DNA from: Parvibaculum lavamentivorans DS-1
Lineage (GTDB): Bacteria > Pseudomonadota > Alphaproteobacteria > Parvibaculales > Parvibaculaceae
Direction of reading: 5' to 3'
Assembly (NCBI RefSeq): GCF_000017565.1
Contig: NC_009719.1
Span: 868,001-932,000 of the forward strand
DNA length: 64,000 nt
How positions within the stretch are numbered: position 1 is the stretch's first letter; every line of letters begins with the position of its first letter. The notes beneath the pieces are model-generated. The model had not been told where the DNA came from. It saw only the letters and a list, made by a program, of their open reading frames with translations, and did not search any database. A program made the position numbers and the translations under genes. Positions 32,042 to 47,872 of this stretch are shown here, one piece after another.

Positions 32042-32872
32042 ATGGGTGCGATCGAAGTTCGGAAAATGACGGGCGGCTGTGGCGCCGAAGTGCTCGGCGC
32101 CGATCTGGCGAAGCTGAGCAATTCGGACATGGAGGCCGTGCGGCAGGCCTATGTCGACTACGGCGTCGTCTTCTTCCGCGACCAGAACCTCACGCCCGAG
32201 GACCACATCGCCTTCGCACGCCGCTGGGGCGACATCGTCGTCAACAGGTTCTTCACGCCGACTCAAAATCCGCTCATCGCCGAGGTGCGGAAGGAGAAGG
32301 AGCAGACCGTCAATATCGGTGGCGGCTGGCACACGGATCATTCCTACGACGCCGAACCCGCCATGGGCTCCGTGCTCGTCGCGCGCGAACTCCCGGACGA
32401 GGGCGGCGACACCATGTTCGCCAGCATGTATGCCGCCTGGGACGCGCTGACGCCGGGCCTGAAGAAAACGCTGGAGGGCTTGCGCGCCGTCCATTCCAAC
32501 GCGCATGTCTTCGGCGCCGCCGGCTTCTACAAGAACAGCGATCAGGGCAAGGGCTTCAAGGGTGAAAATCTCGTCAGCGAAGCCGTCCACCCCGTCGTCG
32601 TCACGCATCCCCTGAGCGGTCGTAAGGCGCTCTACGTCAACCCCGGCTTCACCACCCATTTCGAAGGCTGGAGCTGGCTGGAGAGCAAGCCGCTCCTCGA
32701 CTATCTCTTCGCCCATGCGGCGCGGCCCGAATTCACCTGCCGCTTCCAGTGGCGCGACGGCTCGGTCGCCTTCTGGGACAACCGCGCCACCTGGCACTAC
32801 GCGGTCAACGACTACCACGGCGAGCGGCGCCTGATGCACCGCATCACCATTGCCGGCGCGCCCCTCCAATAG
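32042..32872 (+). CDS. TauD/TfdA-family Fe(II)/2-oxoglutarate dioxygenase
   Basis: 276 residues. The ATG at 32042 follows GGAGGAAATC. Metal ligands are His97 and Asp99 (GGWHTDHSYD) and His252 (RATWHYAVND). Arg263, 11 residues later, would hold 2-oxoglutarate. This is the taurine dioxygenase/2,4-D dioxygenase fold, and a substrate is oxidised with loss of CO2 and succinate formation. The substrate is not known. The next gene, 68 bases on, is a second member, and a third is at 43200. Likely controlled by the divergent Crp/Fnr regulator through the 31955-31974 palindrome. Confidence 0.87.
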   Translation: MGAIEVRKMTGGCGAEVLGADLAKLSNSDMEAVRQAYVDYGVVFFRDQNLTPEDHIAFARRWGDIVVNRFFTPTQNPLIAEVRKEKEQTVNIGGGWHTDHSYDAEPAMGSVLVARELPDEGGDTMFASMYAAWDALTPGLKKTLEGLRAVHSNAHVFGAAGFYKNSDQGKGFKGENLVSEAVHPVVVTHPLSGRKALYVNPGFTTHFEGWSWLESKPLLDYLFAHAARPEFTCRFQWRDGSVAFWDNRATWHYAVNDYHGERRLMHRITIAGAPLQ

Positions 32873-32940
32873 GTTTTACCCGCCGGGCCGATGTGGCAAT
32901 CTCTCGTCAAAGCTCCATGAAAGGAGCAGGGGAGGGAACC

Positions 32941-33810
32941 ATGTCGCAAGCCGCCGCGAAACCGCGCAGCATCCATGTGAAGCCGAACGCATCCGGCTTT
33001 GGTGCCGAAATCACCGGCCTCGATCTGTCGAAGCCGCTCCCGCCCGATGTGCTGGCGGAAGTGCATCGGGCATGGGCAGACCACGCCGTCGTCTGGTTCC
33101 CCGATCAGCCGCTCACGCATGACGAGCTTGAAGCCTTCACCCTCCAGATCGGCCCCTTTGGCCACGATCCCTTCATCGCACCCATGGAAGGCCGCCCGCA
33201 TATTCTCGAACTGCGCCGCGAGCCGAACGAGAAGGCGCGGAATTTCGGCGCCGGCTGGCATTCGGACTGGAGCTTCCAGGAAGAGCCGCCCGCCGCCACC
33301 ATCCTGCACTCAAAGGTAACGCCCCCCGTCGGCGGCGACACGCTCTATGCCGATTGCACCCGCGCTTATGACGCGCTTTCGGATGAGATGAAGAAAGTGC
33401 TTTCCGGCCTCACCGCTGTTCACAGCGCCGCGCTTCCCTACGGCACCAAGGGCATCTTCGCGCAGGAAAAAGAGCAGCGGACAATGAAAATCATCGTCAG
33501 CAAGGAAGCCGAGAAAACATGTCCGCATCCGCTGGTGCGTACGCATCCTGTCACCGGCCGTAAGGCGCTCTATGTCAGTCCCGTTTACACCGTCGGCATC
33601 GAAAGCATGACGCATGAGGAATCCGCCGCCATTCTCGGTTTCCTTTACACCCACATGACGAAAGATGAATTCGTCTACCGCCACAAATGGCGCGAGAACA
33701 TGCTCACCATGTGGGACAACCGCTGCACGCTGCATTTTGCCGATGGCGGCTATGACGGTCATCTGCGTGTCATGCACCGGACCACCGTCGCAGGTGATGT
33801 ACCGCATTAA
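32941..33810 (+). CDS. TauD/TfdA-family dioxygenase
   Basis: 289 residues. The ATG at 32941 follows GGGAGGGAACC. His107 and Asp109 (AGWHSDWSF), His265 (CTLHFADGG) and Arg276 match the metal and 2-oxoglutarate positions of the family. The N-terminal FGAEITGLDLSKPL is also typical. It is adjacent to and co-directional with the previous dioxygenase but clearly diverged, and closer in motif spelling to the one at 43200. Probably in one operon with the upstream gene. A perfect hairpin lies 30 bases after the stop. Confidence 0.87.
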   Translation: MSQAAAKPRSIHVKPNASGFGAEITGLDLSKPLPPDVLAEVHRAWADHAVVWFPDQPLTHDELEAFTLQIGPFGHDPFIAPMEGRPHILELRREPNEKARNFGAGWHSDWSFQEEPPAATILHSKVTPPVGGDTLYADCTRAYDALSDEMKKVLSGLTAVHSAALPYGTKGIFAQEKEQRTMKIIVSKEAEKTCPHPLVRTHPVTGRKALYVSPVYTVGIESMTHEESAAILGFLYTHMTKDEFVYRHKWRENMLTMWDNRCTLHFADGGYDGHLRVMHRTTVAGDVPH

Positions 33811-40771: not shown

Positions 40772-40790
40772 AATTCCGCGGCACGGAATA
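40772..40790. promoter_or_regulatory. Candidate IclR operator in the iclR promoter
   Basis: AATTCCG-CGGCA-CGGAATA, 33 bases before the IclR start, next to GACTATAGG as a possible -10. The half-sites are identical to the operator at 43091-43109. ATTCC-N7-GGAAT is the layout I recall for IclR members such as GenR. Confidence 0.75.
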
Positions 40791-40804
40791 GCCAGACAAT
40801 CCGC

Positions 40805-41530
40805 TCAGTCGTCCGCGGCAAGGTCCAGCAGTTCGGCCACGGCCTCGCTCGCCGGATGGGCCATCACCTCTTTCACGCTGCCTGCCTGCAGAATTTTTCC
40901 CCGATGCATCACACAGATGCGTTCGGCAAGCCGCCGCACATCGTCGAGGTCATGCGTCACCAGAACCACCGGCATGGGCAGATCGCGGCGCAGCTCCGCC
41001 AGTTCGCGGCGCAGGCTCCGCCGCGTCACGCGGTCGACCGCCGAAAAGGGTTCATCGAGCAGCAACACGTCGGGCCGCCGCGCCAGCGCGCGCGCCACCG
41101 CCACGCGCTGTTGTTCGCCGCCAGACAGTTCGGCGGGCCTCCGGTCGGCATGGGTGTCGAGATGCACGCGCGCGAGATAGCCGGCCGCCGCCTCGTGCCG
41201 CGCCTCTTTGGGCAGGTCGCCCAGCGCCTCCATCACATTCTGGCGTGCCGTCAGATGCGGAAAAAGCGCATAGGATTGAAACACCAGCCCTGCGCGCCGT
41301 TCGCGCGGGCGCATGTTGATCTTCTCTTCGCTGTCGAGCCATGTCGCGCCGTTGCAGGCGATGTTTCCTGTCGCGCCTGTGTGGAAGCCCGCAATGGCGC
41401 GCAGCGTCGTCGTCTTGCCGCTGCCCGAAGGCCCGACCAGCGCCATCGCTTCGCCCGGCGCCACGTCGAAAGACACATCGAGCGGGAAGGGCGTCTCCTG
41501 GCGGAGGCTCACCCGGAGGCCCTTATCCAT
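40805..41530 (-). CDS. modC: Molybdate-type ABC transporter ATPase (ModC-like, no MOP domain)
   Basis: 241 residues. Walker A GPSGSGKT, Q-loop VFQSYALFPH, signature LSGGEQQR, Walker B VLLLDEPFSA, H-loop VTHD. E. coli ModC carries an extra C-terminal molybdate-binding MOP domain of about 110 residues, which is absent here. It overlaps modB by 8 bases. It energises ModAB import of an oxyanion. Because the operon is under an IclR-type operator and the MOP domain is missing, a different oxyanion or organic anion is possible. Confidence 0.85.
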   Translation of the reverse strand: MDKGLRVSLRQETPFPLDVSFDVAPGEAMALVGPSGSGKTTTLRAIAGFHTGATGNIACNGATWLDSEEKINMRPRERRAGLVFQSYALFPHLTARQNVMEALGDLPKEARHEAAAGYLARVHLDTHADRRPAELSGGEQQRVAVARALARRPDVLLLDEPFSAVDRVTRRSLRRELAELRRDLPMPVVLVTHDLDDVRRLAERICVMHRGKILQAGSVKEVMAHPASEAVAELLDLAADD

Positions 41531-42191
41531 GGCGCCGTCCGATGCGTTGCGTCAGCAGATAGCTCGCGGCGATGGTGGCGAGCGACACCATCAGCAGCAC
41601 CGCCGCCATCTGTCCCGCCGCCGCCTCGTCGAATGCCTGCACGCGGTCATAAATCGCAATGGCGATGGTGCGCGTCTCGCCGGGAATGCTGCCGCCTACC
41701 ATCAGCACCACGCCGAATTCACCGAGCGTATGGGCGAAGGTCAGCACCGTGCCTGTCAGAATGCCGGGCCAGGCGAGCGGCAGCTCCACCCGCCACAGCA
41801 TCCGCCACCACGACATGCCGCAGCTCGCCGCCGCCTCGCGAAGCTCCGGTCCCACCGCCTCGAAGGCGCGCTGTATCGGTTGTGCGGCAAAGGGAATATT
41901 GACGATCAGCGAGGCAACGAGCAGTCCCTCGAAGGTGAAGACCAGCGTCTGCCCGAACAGCCACTCGAATGCCTGTCCGAACCAGCTTGCCGCGCCGAAG
42001 CCCGACATCAGGTAGAAACCCACTACCGTCGGCGGCAGCACCAGCGGCAGCATCAGCATTGCTTCGATGGCGGGCTTCGCCTTTATCCGTGTAACGGCAA
42101 GGGCGCGTCCACCCAGCACCGCGAGCGGGATCAGCAACGCAACGGTCAGCGCGCCCAGTCGCAAGCTCAATCCAAAGGCTTCCCAGTCCAT
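41523..42191 (-). CDS. modB: Molybdate-type ABC transporter permease
   Basis: 222 residues with five to six hydrophobic helices. The conserved EAA-type loop is EAAASCGMSWWRMLWRVELPLAWPGIL (split: LREAAASCGMSWW / RVELPLAWPGILTG). The N-terminal MDWEAFGLSLRLGALTVALLIPLAV is typical of ModB. A weak GGGAA precedes the ATG. It is the middle gene of modABC: modA ends 27 bases before it and modC overlaps its end. Confidence 0.88.
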   Translation of the reverse strand: MDWEAFGLSLRLGALTVALLIPLAVLGGRALAVTRIKAKPAIEAMLMLPLVLPPTVVGFYLMSGFGAASWFGQAFEWLFGQTLVFTFEGLLVASLIVNIPFAAQPIQRAFEAVGPELREAAASCGMSWWRMLWRVELPLAWPGILTGTVLTFAHTLGEFGVVLMVGGSIPGETRTIAIAIYDRVQAFDEAAAGQMAAVLLMVSLATIAASYLLTQRIGRRHG

Positions 42192-42218
42192 TTGTTCCCG
42201 GCTTCCGTATCGGCGGTC

Positions 42219-43013
42219 CTACATGGCCTCGCCGGGAAGAACATAGCCGTAGCGGCGCATGATTGCCCGCGCTTCCTCGCCTTGCATGAAGCCGTAAAAG
42301 GCATGCGCCGTCTCGCCCGCGCCCTTCAACAGCGCCATGCGCTGGCGCAACGGCCTATGCCGGTCTTCGGGAACCAGCGCATATGTTCCGCGCGTGCCCA
42401 CCTCGGGTGCCAGCGCCAGCGAATAGGCGATCAATCCGCCTTGCGCGTTGCCGGATGTGGCGAACTGCGCCGCCTGCGAAATATTTTCGCCGATCACGAG
42501 TTTGTCCTCGATGGCATCCCACAATCCCGCTTTGTCCAACGCCTCTTTTGCGGCCCGGCCATAGGGCGCGTGTTCAGGATTCGCTATGGCGAATTTCTTC
42601 AGCCGTCCGTCTTCCAGTGCCGCGCCGAGATCGGCCAGCGTGCCGTCGGCAAGGAGCGGCGACCCTTCACCCGCCATGATGACGAGACGGCCGACCGCAT
42701 AGATGTCGCCTTCGCCGTTCGCCGTCAGGCCCTTCTCCGTTAGCCCCATCACGAACCCCTCATCCGCCGACAGGAACATCTGGAAAGGCGCGCCTTGCTG
42801 AATTTGCCGGAAGAAGTTTCCGGATGAACCGAAGGCAAGCTTCACCTCCTTGCCCGTCTTCCCGGTAAAGGCGGTGGCCACGTCGGTCAGCGCGAATTGC
42901 AGCGTTGCCGCCGCGGCTATGTTAGGCGTCTCCTCCGCGCGGCCGGGGCCCGCAAGCGGCAAGGAGGCGAGCGCAAAGGCGGCGAGCAGCAGGATGGCGC
43001 GTCTCGGTTTCAT
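42219..43013 (-). CDS. modA: Molybdate-type ABC transporter substrate-binding protein
   Basis: 264 residues from the ATG at 43013 (GGAG upstream), with a signal peptide MKPRRAILLLAAFALASLPLAGPGRA. ModA pattern: AAAATLQFALTDVATAF, LAFGSSGNFFRQI, QMFLSADEGF, IANPEHAPYGRAA, ENISQAAQFATSGNAQGGLIAYSLA. The first binding Ser of E. coli ModA appears to be Thr here. It binds an oxyanion in the periplasm and hands it to ModB. It is divergent from the TauD-like gene at 43200, with the IclR-type operator between them. Confidence 0.87.
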   Translation of the reverse strand: MKPRRAILLLAAFALASLPLAGPGRAEETPNIAAAATLQFALTDVATAFTGKTGKEVKLAFGSSGNFFRQIQQGAPFQMFLSADEGFVMGLTEKGLTANGEGDIYAVGRLVIMAGEGSPLLADGTLADLGAALEDGRLKKFAIANPEHAPYGRAAKEALDKAGLWDAIEDKLVIGENISQAAQFATSGNAQGGLIAYSLALAPEVGTRGTYALVPEDRHRPLRQRMALLKGAGETAHAFYGFMQGEEARAIMRRYGYVLPGEAM

Positions 43014-43090
43014 GGCTGGCTCCATCGACATCACCGGTGGAATGGTATCGAAAGTACGAAAGGCGCGATATAGCGCCAGTTTTGCCACCT

Positions 43091-43109
43091 AATTCCGTCT
43101 GACGGAATT
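43091..43109. promoter_or_regulatory. Candidate IclR operator in the modA/TauD divergent promoter
   Basis: AATTCCGTC-T-GACGGAATT: a perfect 19-bp palindrome, 77 bases from modA and 90 from the TauD-like start. It shares AATTCCG-N5-CGGAAT with the site in front of the IclR gene at 40772-40790. Confidence 0.8.
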
Positions 43110-43199
43110 TTGAAACATGGTTGAAGCGCCGGGCGGCCGGAGCCCCGTAAGCTTCCTGGCAATGGGATCGGGAGGTCCCTTGATCCGGGAGGAATGATC

Positions 43200-44083: not shown

Positions 44084-44653
44084 ATGAAAACACTTATCTA
44101 TTGGGGCTCCGCCCTGGCGGCGGCGCTCGTCCTCGCTCTGGGCACCGCATGGTGGTTCGTCAACGACTATGGTGGCACCTACCGCTCCGGCGCATGGACC
44201 ACATCCACCGCCTATGGCAGCGTTGAGGCGGATATGTACACCCGCGCCCGCGTCGCTCTGTTCGGCCTTCTCGCGCTCGACAAGCGCGAGACCATGTACT
44301 ACCAGACCCGAACCGACAGCGCGGGCGAGCCCCTGTCAGGCAACTGCACCTACCGTCTCGAAGGCAGCGACCTCGCCGCCCATTGGTGGAGCATCACCGC
44401 TTACGATGCCGACAGCTTTCTGATCCCCAACGAGCGCAATGTCTTCTCCTTCTCGCAGACGACAACGGCGCGCGAACCGGATGGCAGCTTCGTCATCCGC
44501 ATATCCCCCGATCCGCAGGAGAAGAACTGGTTGCCGGTCAAGGCGGGCGAGGGCTTCGACCTCACTGCGCGCTTCTACAACCCGCAAGCGTCGATCTACG
44601 CCGATCCCGCCGCTGCGGTTCTTCCCATCATCGCGAAGGAAACCTGCCGATGA
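44084..44653 (+). CDS. DUF1214 membrane-anchored protein (copy 1)
   Basis: 189 residues. One N-terminal transmembrane segment (TLIYWGSALAAALVLALGTAWWF), then a periplasmic DUF1214 domain with ADMYTRARVALFGLLAL, TDSAGEPLSGNC and AAHWWSITAYD. Function unknown. DUF1214 and DUF1254 are often domains of one periplasmic protein; here they are separate genes with overlap ATGA to the next gene. The pair is duplicated immediately downstream (45218-46335) with high local similarity. Weak ribosome binding site. Confidence 0.8.
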   Translation: MKTLIYWGSALAAALVLALGTAWWFVNDYGGTYRSGAWTTSTAYGSVEADMYTRARVALFGLLALDKRETMYYQTRTDSAGEPLSGNCTYRLEGSDLAAHWWSITAYDADSFLIPNERNVFSFSQTTTAREPDGSFVIRISPDPQEKNWLPVKAGEGFDLTARFYNPQASIYADPAAAVLPIIAKETCR

Positions 44654-45195
44654 ACCGCAAACCTCAGTGGCTCGCCGTTGTCGCGGTTCTTGCCGTCATC
44701 TTGCATCTCGCCATCGTCTGGGCGGTCCCGCGCGTCGTCATGTCGGTTGCGATGGCCAAAATCGGCGATACCGCGGCGCTCAACGAATTTACGCATCCGC
44801 CCCGCGCGACCGATGCATCGCGTGCCGTCGTGCGGCCGAGTCCGGATCTCGCCTATTCGATCTGCCTTCTCGACCTGTCGCAGGGTCCGGTTCGCATCGA
44901 GGTGCCGGCCAGCGCGCCCTACACCTCGCTCGCGCTCTATTCCTCGATCACGGATAATTATTTCGTCCGCAACAACCGCGAAGATGGCGGACTTCAGGAT
45001 GGCGAAATGATTGGTGTCGTCGTCACCGGTCCCGCTGACGAGGCGCCAGCGAACCTGCCGGAAGGTCTCGCCGTCGTCAGCTCGCCGACGGAAAAGGGCC
45101 TCGCTCTTGTCCGCCGCGTCATCGAGAGCGACGCCGCCATGCCGGGGCTCGACGCGCTGCGCGCATCCTCGGTTTGCACACCATACGGAAACTGA
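44650..45195 (+). CDS. DUF1254 membrane-anchored protein (copy 1)
   Basis: 181 residues. Its ATG overlaps the stop of the DUF1214 gene (ATGA), so the pair is translationally coupled. N-terminal transmembrane helix (WLAVVAVLAVILHLAIVWAVP), then a periplasmic DUF1254 domain with RPSPDLAYSICLLDLSQGPVRIEVP, PYTSLALYSSITDNYFVRNN and ENDAAMPGLD-like SDAAMPGLDALRA. Function unknown. A near-duplicate is the last gene of the run. Confidence 0.8.
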   Translation: MNRKPQWLAVVAVLAVILHLAIVWAVPRVVMSVAMAKIGDTAALNEFTHPPRATDASRAVVRPSPDLAYSICLLDLSQGPVRIEVPASAPYTSLALYSSITDNYFVRNNREDGGLQDGEMIGVVVTGPADEAPANLPEGLAVVSSPTEKGLALVRRVIESDAAMPGLDALRASSVCTPYGN

Positions 45196-45217
45196 GATCG
45201 TCACGGAGGGAGTGAAT

Positions 45218-45793
45218 ATGAAACCCGTTTTGTATTGGGGCGGCATTCTCGCCGCCGGGCTGCTGCTGGGTCTCGTATCGGTGGTCGTGGGCTTGAGGGT
45301 CGGCAATCCCGCCATCACCCTCAGCTCCGGCCCCTGGACCACCACACTCTCCGCTGGCAGCGCGGATGCGGACATGTATACCCGCGCCCGCGTCGCGCTT
45401 TTCGGTCTTCTCGCTCTCAACAAGGAGGAGACGATGTATTACCGCACCGCCACCGACAGCGCAGGTGAGCCGCTCTCGGGCGATTGCATCTATGTGCTGG
45501 AGGGCGGCGATCTCGCCGCGCATTGGTGGGCGATCACTGCCTATGGGCTTGATGGCTTCCTGCTGCCGAACGAGCCCGGCATCTATTCCTTCTCGAAGAC
45601 AACGGTGAAGCGCGATGCCGCCGGCCGTTACACCGTCCGCGCTTCCGCCGAGCCGCAGGCGGGCAACTGGATTCCGCTGCGGGCGGGGGAGCCGTTCGAT
45701 CTCACGGCCCGCCTCTACAATCCAGAACCCTCCGTCTATTCGGCGCCGCAATCCGCGGCCCTGCCCACCATCGTCAGGGAGAGCTGCCAATGA
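45218..45793 (+). CDS. DUF1214 membrane-anchored protein (copy 2)
   Basis: 191 residues; GGAGG lies before the ATG at 45218. The transmembrane start MKPVLYWGGILAAGLLLG is followed by the same DUF1214 body as copy 1: ADMYTRARVALFGLLALNKEETMYY, TDSAGEPLSGDC and AAHWWAITAYG. Sequences of copies 1 and 2 agree over most of the conserved blocks and differ mainly in the N-terminal helix. It begins 22 bases after copy 1 ends, so a tandem duplication of the whole pair is the simplest history. Confidence 0.82.
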   Translation: MKPVLYWGGILAAGLLLGLVSVVVGLRVGNPAITLSSGPWTTTLSAGSADADMYTRARVALFGLLALNKEETMYYRTATDSAGEPLSGDCIYVLEGGDLAAHWWAITAYGLDGFLLPNEPGIYSFSKTTVKRDAAGRYTVRASAEPQAGNWIPLRAGEPFDLTARLYNPEPSVYSAPQSAALPTIVRESCQ

Positions 45794-46335
45794 AGCGCGT
45801 TCTCGTATTCGCCGGCGCCACGCTGTTGGTCGCCGCCATCGTCCATGTCGCCGTGGTCTGGTCCATTCCGCGCGTCGTGATGTCGAGGGTCTTCGAGGGC
45901 GTTGGCGGTGCCGGCGCGGTGAACAACTTCCTCTCGCCGCCTCCCGCCACCTCCGCCTCCCGCACCATCGTCCGGCCGAGCGCCGACCTCGCTTATTCGG
46001 TCTGCATTCTCGATCTCTCGGCGGGGCCCGTCCTGCTGGAGGTGCCCGCCACCGCGCCCTACACCTCGCTCGCGCTCTACTCCGCCACGACCGACAATTA
46101 TTTCGTCCGCAACAACCGCGAAGGCGAGGGGGTGGGCGAGGGCGAGCCGATCGGCCTCGTCCTCACCGGCCCCGGTGAAGCGCCGCCCGCGAACCTGCCG
46201 GAGGGATATGCCGCTGTCGCTTCGCCGACCTCGAAAAGCCTCGCACTCGTGCGCCGCGTCATCGAGAACGATGCCGCCCTGCCGAGGCTCGACGAGATCC
46301 GCGCGCGTTCCGTCTGCACGCCCCTCAACGGCTGA
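45790..46335 (+). CDS. DUF1254 membrane-anchored protein (copy 2)
   Basis: 181 residues, same length as copy 1. The ATG overlaps the DUF1214 stop (ATGA). N-terminal helix VLVFAGATLLVAAIVHVAVVW, then RPSADLAYSVCILDLSAGPVLLEVP and PYTSLALYSATTDNYFVRNN, close to copy 1. Its 3' end overlaps the convergent dimethylformamidase-like gene by 11 bases. Role unknown; may act with its DUF1214 partner in the periplasm. Confidence 0.82.
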   Translation: MKRVLVFAGATLLVAAIVHVAVVWSIPRVVMSRVFEGVGGAGAVNNFLSPPPATSASRTIVRPSADLAYSVCILDLSAGPVLLEVPATAPYTSLALYSATTDNYFVRNNREGEGVGEGEPIGLVLTGPGEAPPANLPEGYAAVASPTSKSLALVRRVIENDAALPRLDEIRARSVCTPLNG

Positions 46336-47872
46336 GAAACCGCTCCAGCACGTTCCGCGTGATCCTGTCGACGAAGGGATTGCCCGCCTGCAGCCCATAG
46401 GCCCATTCGGTCGTGCCCGAGTTGAACACCTCGCCCTTGCCGCGCCTGAACGTCGCGAGCACCGCATGGCCGCGCATCATCCGCGCGCGGTTCTCCGGCG
46501 CGTCATATCCGGCAAAGGCCCGCGTCAGCGGTCCCCACGCTTCCGGTGGCACCAGCCCGGCGAATTCCGATTCCGGTTCGCCCAGCGTCACAGGTGCCGT
46601 CGCGATGATTTCCAGATGAGCGGGCACGCCGAGCCGCGCCACCGGCTTCGGCAATCCGTCCTCGCCGAAGGTGAGAGCGCAGCCGTCATTCTCGTAGCCG
46701 ATCAGCCGGCAATCGTCGCCGAACACATCGCCCCAATAGAGGTCCGCGCCCTCCAGCGCCCAGTGCTTCTCGTCCCACACCGTATAGCCGCCGATCCCGC
46801 GCGCCACGCACAGTCCGAAGCGGTGATAGCCGCCGAAGAGAAACGACAGCCCCGTCAGTTGCGCCTCCGGCTTGCCGATCCACGGGCTCGACCAGAGCCC
46901 TGATGTGAGATGCCGCTTCTCCGGTATCGCCGCCAGCGGGTCCTCGTCCTCCGCCCGCGCCTTGTGCGCAACGAAGATCTTGCCGCCATCTTCCCAACGG
47001 CACTGCCAGTAGCAGGTATTGCCCGAGAGAATGATCGCGCGCCCGCCCTCGTCGACGAAGCGTTCCACTTCCGCTCGCTGCCCCCAGCTCCAATATTCGC
47101 TGTGCCCCACGAAAAGCGCCGCCGTGTAGCCGTCCAGCACGCCCGGCTCCGCTTCAAGGTCGTAATCGGTGAGATAGTCGAGCGCATATCCCGCGCCCTC
47201 CGCCCAGGTAACGAAGGCATGTTCCCACTTGTCGGTAAAGCCCGCCGGGCAGTCCCATCCCTGGCCGCCCGCCTCGATCTCGTGAACGACCTCGCCCGGC
47301 AGCACGCGCTCGCGAAAGCCGCGCCGCGTCTCGCTCACCAGCCGGTGCTTCTCCGCCGCCGGCTGCATGATGCCGCGCGAGAAAGGCCGCTCCGCCGAAA
47401 GCCGCGCCGCCACGACATGGCGTCCTTGATCGGCGGGAACAGGCGCGGGCGGGGGCCCGCCGAGCCAGACATAGGTGTTGGCCCCGCCCCAGGAATTATA
47501 GGCGTGATAGGTATTGGTCGCGAGAACGATGACGGCCTTCTCGGTCTGCTGCGCCGGCCGCACGCAAAGCATGTGATGCCCACTCGCCCCGTCCGCGCCC
47601 GTGAAGCGGATATCGTAATAGCCGGAGCGCCACTCGGCCGGCACCTCAAGCCGGAATGCCTCCGGCCAGCCGCAGCCATGGATATGCGCTTCCTCCGGCG
47701 CCGCGTGCCGCCCCACGGCAATGCCCTCCTTGCGCCACAAGGGTTCCCGCTTCGCGCCCAGCCGCGCAATTTCGACATCGCACCTGCCGCCCGTCGCCGA
47801 CAGGAAGAAGCTCACCGTCTCGCCCGGCCGCGCGCTCAACTTGTCGGAATAGCCCCAGATCCACTTGTCCAC
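46325..47872 (-). CDS. N,N-dimethylformamidase beta-subunit-like protein
   Basis: 515 residues with a GTG start at 47872 (GAGG upstream). The central ALDYLTDYDLE...FVGHSEYWSW segment carries His257 and Glu259, the H-x-E pair that in the dimethylformamidase large subunit binds iron. The protein is a stand-alone version without the small subunit, resembling the C-terminal region of the beta subunit. It probably hydrolyses an amide, but dimethylformamide itself is only a guess. Convergent with the DUF1254 gene (11-base overlap). The upstream gene on its strand is 68 bases away. Confidence 0.72.
   Translation of the reverse strand: MDKWIWGYSDKLSARPGETVSFFLSATGGRCDVEIARLGAKREPLWRKEGIAVGRHAAPEEAHIHGCGWPEAFRLEVPAEWRSGYYDIRFTGADGASGHHMLCVRPAQQTEKAVIVLATNTYHAYNSWGGANTYVWLGGPPPAPVPADQGRHVVAARLSAERPFSRGIMQPAAEKHRLVSETRRGFRERVLPGEVVHEIEAGGQGWDCPAGFTDKWEHAFVTWAEGAGYALDYLTDYDLEAEPGVLDGYTAALFVGHSEYWSWGQRAEVERFVDEGGRAIILSGNTCYWQCRWEDGGKIFVAHKARAEDEDPLAAIPEKRHLTSGLWSSPWIGKPEAQLTGLSFLFGGYHRFGLCVARGIGGYTVWDEKHWALEGADLYWGDVFGDDCRLIGYENDGCALTFGEDGLPKPVARLGVPAHLEIIATAPVTLGEPESEFAGLVPPEAWGPLTRAFAGYDAPENRARMMRGHAVLATFRRGKGEVFNSGTTEWAYGLQAGNPFVDRITRNVLERFLSR

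Follow-up and report, generated by a model that had tools for sequence, protein, structure and literature searches.

The stretch of the Parvibaculum lavamentivorans DS-1 genome analysed here (the window, 64,000 nucleotides, in whose numbering positions are given unless the genome is named) carries the minus-strand genes modA, modB, modC and iclR and, divergent from modA on the plus strand, a TauD-like gene (tauD below) followed by two DUF1214/DUF1254 gene pairs (Table 1). Two copies of a palindrome, ATTCCG-N5-CGGAAT, lie at this locus, one in the iclR promoter and the other between modA and tauD. These sites are real, and their layout is that of operators of the IclR type. The best overall explanation, which we regard as probable, is a regulon in which an IclR-family protein would act as both autorepressor and activator on this one palindrome.

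Operator 2 is the perfect 19-bp palindrome that a preliminary description of the window had placed at 43091-43109, and its near-identical partner at 40772-40790 indeed lies in the iclR promoter, with a single mismatch to the palindrome at its final base. The claim that the half-sites agree base for base therefore holds for ATTCCG and CGGAAT and fails for the outermost base of operator 1. In the genome-wide scan proposed in that description, the exact pattern occurs only twice across the complete DS-1 genome of 3,914,745 bp, both times within one 2.3-kb stretch, and a one-mismatch site appears at genome position 296000; base composition predicts 0.16 exact matches, and the reversed-pattern control gives none. 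When two mismatches are allowed, the genome holds 23 sites against 8 for controls. Three of these are discussed here; the 20 others, all with two mismatches, are excluded from the regulon claims. Matches with up to three mismatches are no more frequent in the window than in shuffled sequence (20 against a shuffle mean of 24, which is chance level), and evidence can therefore be drawn from the near-perfect sites alone. A tandem IclR site, 18-22 bp away from centre to centre, was also sought: no second site with four or fewer mismatches starts within 45 bp of either operator, and the sole weak candidate is a five-mismatch stretch at 43052.

Table 1. Features of the DS-1 locus and of one distant putative target gene
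Feature	Position	Strand	Remarks
iclR, IclR-family regulator, 264 aa	39945..40739	-	HTH_IclR and IclR_C domains
Operator 1, AATTCCGCGGCACGGAATA	40772..40790	.	iclR promoter; bases 2-18 in predicted -35/-10 spacer
modC, ATPase, 241 aa	40805..41530	-	MOP domain not found; regulon membership doubtful
modB, molybdate permease	41523..42191	-	regulon membership doubtful
modA, molybdate-binding protein	42219..43031	-	regulon membership doubtful
Operator 2, perfect palindrome AATTCCGTCTGACGGAATT	43091..43109	.	between modA and tauD
Predicted tauD -10 element TAAGCT	43148..43153	+	38 bp downstream of operator 2
TauD-like Fe(II)/2-oxoglutarate dioxygenase, 287 aa	43194..44057	+	domain and profile matches
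DUF1214 protein 1, short form	44084..44653	+	hydrophobic N-terminal stretch, judged by eye
DUF1254 protein 1, short form	44650..45195	+	hydrophobic N-terminal stretch, judged by eye
DUF1214 protein 2, second pair	45218..45793	+	domain match
DUF1254 protein 2, second pair	45790..46335	+	domain match
Metallo-hydrolase, DS-1 copy	genome 296083-297408		operator at genome 296000, 1 mismatch

The regulator encoded at the locus belongs to the IclR family by both of its domains (HTH_IclR 44.9 bits against a Pfam cut-off of 22; IclR_C 32.5 against 24), and its 435.1 bits exceed the cut-off of 251 for NCBIfam NF007342, the PRK09834 group (named PRK09834.1-4). The likeness of the sites to the operator of GenR, an IclR-family protein of Corynebacterium glutamicum, was rightly pointed out in the preliminary description: Table 1 of PMC8222616 gives ATTCC-N7(5)-GGAAT for GenR, the same half-sites in the same layout. 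The WTT-11-AAW class of the same survey (Suvorova and Gelfand 2021), with the consensus WTTYCRYW3RYGRAAW at fixed spacing, is likewise matched by the ATTCCG and CGGAAT half-sites with their 5-bp gap. According to the same table, the genes of GenR are those of 3-hydroxybenzoate/gentisate, whereas in the present case TauD, DUF and hydrolase genes accompany the palindrome. The centre of the palindrome is frequently G/C in Parvibaculum and AT-rich among distant relatives.

Conservation at orthologous genes was the point on which the preliminary description had said its proposal could fall, and at iclR and tauD the proposal came through. An operator lies upstream of iclR in all 34 readable distinct loci of the family, with at most two mismatches in 32 and three in the other 2. 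Sites with at most two mismatches lie upstream of 27/27 iclR genes and 20/20 adjacent tauD genes, where the best of 300 control palindromes reach 2 iclR and 0 tauD upstream matches. The 27 iclR loci were obtained by protein match (24) or by motif (3), leaving aside G023, whose gene is truncated by the end of a contig (L092), and the second, weaker IclR matches at four loci (40-44%, L067-L070). A protein search of 13 family genomes from other genera and two from the genus found iclR in 10, among them the three motif-found loci, and all 10 carry the site (8 with at most two mismatches, 2 with three); genomes G013 and G005 gave no iclR match. An operator does occur in G005, whose genome is 71% complete, upstream of a beta-lactamase-family gene (L104:5387-5592).

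The spacing of the palindrome is as constant as its presence. In the 24 loci retrieved by protein match to IclR, 24 sites with at most one mismatch have a gap of 5 bp, and each gap of 2-4 or 6-9 bp yields 0-1; this count supersedes an earlier one (39 sites at 5 bp) from loci that were partly motif-chosen. Four related iclR loci of a sister genus (L254, L255, L256, L258) read AATTCCA-N5-TGGAATT, with both half-sites altered together, and this two-sided change fits a palindrome under selection. In most relatives the order runs from a GH5-like gene through iclR, the operator and a variable insert to a peptidase-like gene labelled prlB. The operator stands 75-93 bp from tauD at 15/20 loci and 96-119 bp from it at the other five, and at tauD-less loci (L087, L088, L089, L096, L097) it directly faces the DUF1214/DUF1254 pair. 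Since the palindromes are conserved at iclR and tauD and fit a published IclR class, we conclude that iclR, tauD and the DUF1214/DUF1254 genes belong together. To that extent the proposal of an IclR-type operator shared by the TauD-like gene, the DUF genes and the promoter of iclR itself is supported. The two tandem DUF pairs of DS-1 (44084-46335) are 58% and 61% identical, and the second is found at no other compared locus. A gene of the N,N-dimethylformamidase beta-subunit C-terminal family (46325-47872) lies convergent to the last DUF1254 gene.

The putative regulon reaches beyond the window to dispersed genes. At up to one mismatch, and with reversed-pattern controls, a scan of 27 genomes of the genus gave 56 sites against 6 for the controls, and one of 13 genomes from other genera gave 16 against 7; the named targets account for 44 of the 56 genus sites and for 10 of those in other genera. 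Sorted by hand, the genus sites fall at the iclR/tauD locus (29), at metallo-hydrolase genes (11), at arylsulfatase genes (3), at a fused DUF gene (1) and elsewhere (12). Of these last, five are a single homologous place in four genomes, beside or in a short predicted open reading frame with no nameable promoter (L208-L212), six lie within genes or between gene ends, and one precedes an MFS-type gene by 53 bp in a single genome (L213). Six of the 16 sites in other genera also fall elsewhere, and two of them (L225 and L229) overlap a ribosome-binding stretch that immediately precedes a large oxidoreductase-like gene.

The metallo-hydrolase combines a metallo-beta-lactamase fold with an alkyl-sulfatase dimerisation domain, and an operator with at most two mismatches lies upstream of it in 13/22 regions (controls at most 2). 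For a PAS-type arylsulfatase of the relatives the count is 4/11 (controls at most 1). These fractions become 8/17 and 2/9 without the loci first found by motif. They rest on starts found for 22/24 metallo-hydrolase and 11/12 arylsulfatase loci; starts were found for only 7/25 iclR loci, which were redone with other anchors. A fused DUF1254-DUF1214 protein of 476 residues is also under an operator (L105:6948-8403) in G009, a genome whose iclR locus has neither tauD nor a split DUF1214/DUF1254 pair, and DUF3604 genes have an operator upstream in six genomes of the sister genus (L220, L222, L223, L227, L232, L233, L115). The gene set drawn from the window in the preliminary description thus stands for iclR, tauD and the DUF genes and is incomplete, for the metallo-hydrolase, the arylsulfatase, the fused DUF1254-DUF1214 gene and DUF3604 also appear under the palindrome.

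What these genes do together is less clear than that they share an operator. We tentatively suggest, at somewhat below an even chance, that the regulon serves in the use of organosulfur compounds, either sulfate esters or sulfonates, mainly because of the arylsulfatase under the operator. Judged by sequence, this enzyme is the sole clear sulfatase among the targets: the one tested carries the formylglycine motif CxPxR of S1 sulfatases as CSPTR, which it shares with PAS/AtsA of Pseudomonas aeruginosa, and scores 279 bits to that protein (PDB 1hdh) and 281 to 4cxk. It differs from PAS/AtsA in being 754 residues long.

The TauD-like protein is harder to place. Its best PDB match is TauD (246.5 bits; AtsK 163), and it resembles TauD of Escherichia coli and AtsK of Pseudomonas putida in fold family, in its retained Fe and 2-oxoglutarate residues and in its sulfo-group residues. 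By our own motif alignment, His80, Val112 and Arg278, invariant in 13/13 proteins, correspond to the sulfate-binding His81, Val111 and Arg279 of AtsK, a correspondence that is not decisive for the AtsK clade, since TauD has the same residues. Unlike a taurine dioxygenase, it falls short of that equivalog (NCBIfam PRK09553, 303.8 bits against a cut-off of 313), and Tyr73 and Asn95 of TauD, which we take to be taurine contacts, are replaced in the alignment. Two adjacent TauD/TfdA-type genes at 32066-33804 (L100:2067-3805), 42% and 35% identical to the TauD-like protein, also lie in the window, and their place near the locus is kept in many loci of the genus.

Several results weigh against a role in organosulfur use. 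DS-1 has no orthologue of the arylsulfatase, its best relative being 35% identical, and the published signatures of the S2 and S3 sulfatases are not those of the other two enzymes. None of 18 TauD-like proteins has the S2 alkylsulfodioxygenase pattern of the AtsK clade, as given in PMC5066984. The metallo-hydrolases (3/3) have the HxHxDH zinc motif of S3 (SdsA1) as HGHADH and lack its sulfate-binding loop pattern (3/3); at 438-444 residues and 67 bits to SdsA1 they do not show similarity over the roughly 600 residues of that group.

It is possible, with a probability well under even, that the regulon is unrelated to sulfur and instead degrades a carbon compound, such as an aromatic acid, an ester or a lipid. 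TauD/TfdA-type enzymes act on carboxylates too. The metallo-hydrolase, besides failing the sulfate loop, sits among SDR and aminotransferase genes, and genes for an SDR, an MFS protein and an AMP ligase come after a tauD-iclR pair in Pseudomonas. IclR regulons also often contain aromatic or sugar genes (PMC8222616). What this carbon-based alternative leaves unexplained is the PAS-type arylsulfatase placed under the same operator in some genomes and, within the limits of our alignment, the invariance of the TauD-like residues at the sulfate-binding places of AtsK. The fullest version of the organosulfur role is doubtful in our view: a formylglycine sulfatase, a zinc metallo-hydrolase and an Fe/2-oxoglutarate dioxygenase would share one autorepressing and activating operator, with DUF1254/DUF1214 and DUF3604 proteins taking part in the same sulfur chemistry. 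DS-1 is known for surfactant degradation (PMC3368416), and the set of genes amounts to a regulon open to experiment in a surfactant-degrading bacterium, one that also hints at functions for DUF1214, DUF1254 and DUF3604.

The position of the operator relative to predicted promoter boxes suggests how the regulator might act. A TANNNT element begins exactly at operator base 19, its last, in 24/27 iclR promoters, and TTG is found at the corresponding -35 position in 19/27 and one base off in 4 more. In the promoters of tauD or DUF1214, TANNNT stands at +37/+38 from the operator in 20/23 (near-duplicates L078 and L089 removed), with three stray matches over 85 offsets. A -35-like box at +14 recurs in 15/20 metallo-hydrolase and 5/7 arylsulfatase promoters, and the latter have a -10 at +37/+38 in 5/7. 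These box counts omit regions with more than three mismatches (more than two for DUF3604, of which 4/7 were kept) or near a contig end.

Because the 17-bp core exactly fills the -35/-10 spacer of the iclR promoter, autorepression is expected there: a single IclR-family protein, the likely binder of ATTCCG-N5-CGGAAT, would block RNA polymerase at its own gene. At the divergent tauD/DUF1214 promoter, the centre of the operator would lie near -60 relative to the transcription start as predicted, a usual position from which an activator touches RNA polymerase, so activation is expected at that end. Binding, probably with an effector, would turn on the tauD and DUF genes and, in part likewise, the distant metallo-hydrolase and arylsulfatase promoters. 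We consider repression at iclR combined with activation at the targets moderately probable. The MhpR/PobR/PcaU-type IclR activators, whose operator positions we presume to be near -60, resemble this system in the placement of the operator at the target and in that our IclR exceeds the NF007342 cut-off, and differ from it in that aromatic-pathway genes are absent among the sites read here. For GenR, the title of a paper cited in PMC8222616 names both activation and repression.

The simplest alternative to this dual action is a plain repressor at every site, relieved by an inducer, in which case the -10 spacing at tauD would merely reflect a shared divergent promoter region. Some IclR proteins do act as repressors, and where iclR and tauD diverge, the one operator that separates them overlaps the iclR promoter. 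We think a plain repressor rather unlikely, as similar spacing (-35-like at +14, -10 at +36 to +38) recurs in some metallo-hydrolase promoters and in the majority of arylsulfatase promoters, neither of which share a divergent region with iclR.

A number of observations count against the autorepressor and activator regulon as a whole. The -35 box of iclR in DS-1 itself is poor (CTGGCT), and the three -10 misses are three iclR loci from other genera, which lack the spacer-filling layout. A -10 at +36 is found in just 7/20 metallo-hydrolase promoters, and the common geometry, sought in the DUF3604 promoters, is absent there (1/4). Moreover, the choice of box patterns followed inspection of the sequences, and relatedness among the genomes makes the counts non-independent; they are descriptive. 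At three loci of the genus, both tauD and the DUF pair are missing beside an iclR that has the operator (L080, L084 and G023, the last split over two contigs). Further afield, 8 of 13 distant IclR relatives lack a nearby tauD match, and five distant genomes with sites have them almost only at iclR loci.

The preliminary description had gone further and joined the importer to the dioxygenase as a single uptake-plus-oxidation pathway under IclR control. Its picture of a mod-type importer without the MOP domain is borne out: ModA and ModB score above their curated molybdate cut-offs (198.3 against 62.5 bits and 229.6 against 182.6), this ModB being the only one of 12 ModB-model matches in the DS-1 genome to do so, and ModC, at 200.7 bits, is below its cut-off of 285.05 and shows nothing in a domain search beyond the ATPase domain, hence no C-terminal MOP. 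Control by IclR is another matter. In its favour, the distance from operator 2 down to the likely starts of modA in DS-1 is 59-77 bp (we place the start at the ATG with first base 43031, with alternative ATGs at 43025 and 43013; the open reading frame reaches a GTG at 43088), and an operator adjoins modA in 7 of the 11 genus genomes that have modB. In six of these the operon is flanked by iclR and tauD, and each of its ends has an operator; in G013 only the modA/tauD end is readable, and the operator is present.

On the other side, modB is missing from 16 of the 27 genus genomes, 14 of which retain iclR and the operator, and four modB genomes have modCBA at the same locus, on the far side of the insert, without an operator at modA, so that here the conservation on which the proposal was staked fails in 4/11. 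The modA -10-like box varies by eye (TATATC at +18 and +20, GATAAA at +32) and the tauD geometry is steady, and the molybdate scores of ModA and ModB also speak against this version. A spacing-6 palindrome upstream of modA in L087/L089 was rejected, as it lies inside the neighbouring dmf-like gene. For these reasons we do not count modABC as a core member of the regulon. The single uptake-plus-oxidation pathway is unlikely, its uptake half having lost most of its support because it leaned on modABC, and IclR may control modABC in a single group of genomes at most. The operon appears to have been inserted at a later time into an iclR-operator-tauD unit that is older. What can be separated, then, is a conserved regulatory core of iclR, tauD and the DUF genes from a probable passenger, modABC, that is convincing only when one genome is viewed alone.

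That a different transcription factor binds the palindrome, with iclR only one of its targets, is very improbable, given the site at iclR in every readable locus, the IclR motif layout, and the persistence of the site with some iclR-tauD pairs in distant taxa that have few other sites. Literature searches found nothing that combines DUF1254 with DUF1214 or Parvibaculum lavamentivorans with IclR and, judged by titles, nothing on an IclR regulon with arylsulfatase or an IclR/TauD/sulfatase operator; the main text of PMC8222616 mentions TauABC transporters and does not contain TauD, sulfatase, molybd, DUF or Parvibaculum.

The distant IclR relatives comprise 13 loci (L195-L207) at 37-44% identity. 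A tauD match lies near iclR in 5/13, divergently in four, which are metagenome-assembled genomes (MAGs) labelled alphaproteobacterial, Caenispirillum, Reyranella and Planctomycetia, and the palindrome stands between the divergent genes in the first three of these (3/13). A Pseudomonas fluorescens record has tauD and then iclR, with the palindrome upstream of tauD, and the SDR that follows this pair is 45% identical to the SDR beside the DS-1 metallo-hydrolase. In a Rhodospirillales MAG the palindrome stands at iclR, with no tauD nearby. The Reyranella MAG (G068, L251:1-2423) holds a second divergent iclR-tauD pair with its own palindrome variant, AGTCCGTATTACGGACT, beside cysN/cysC.

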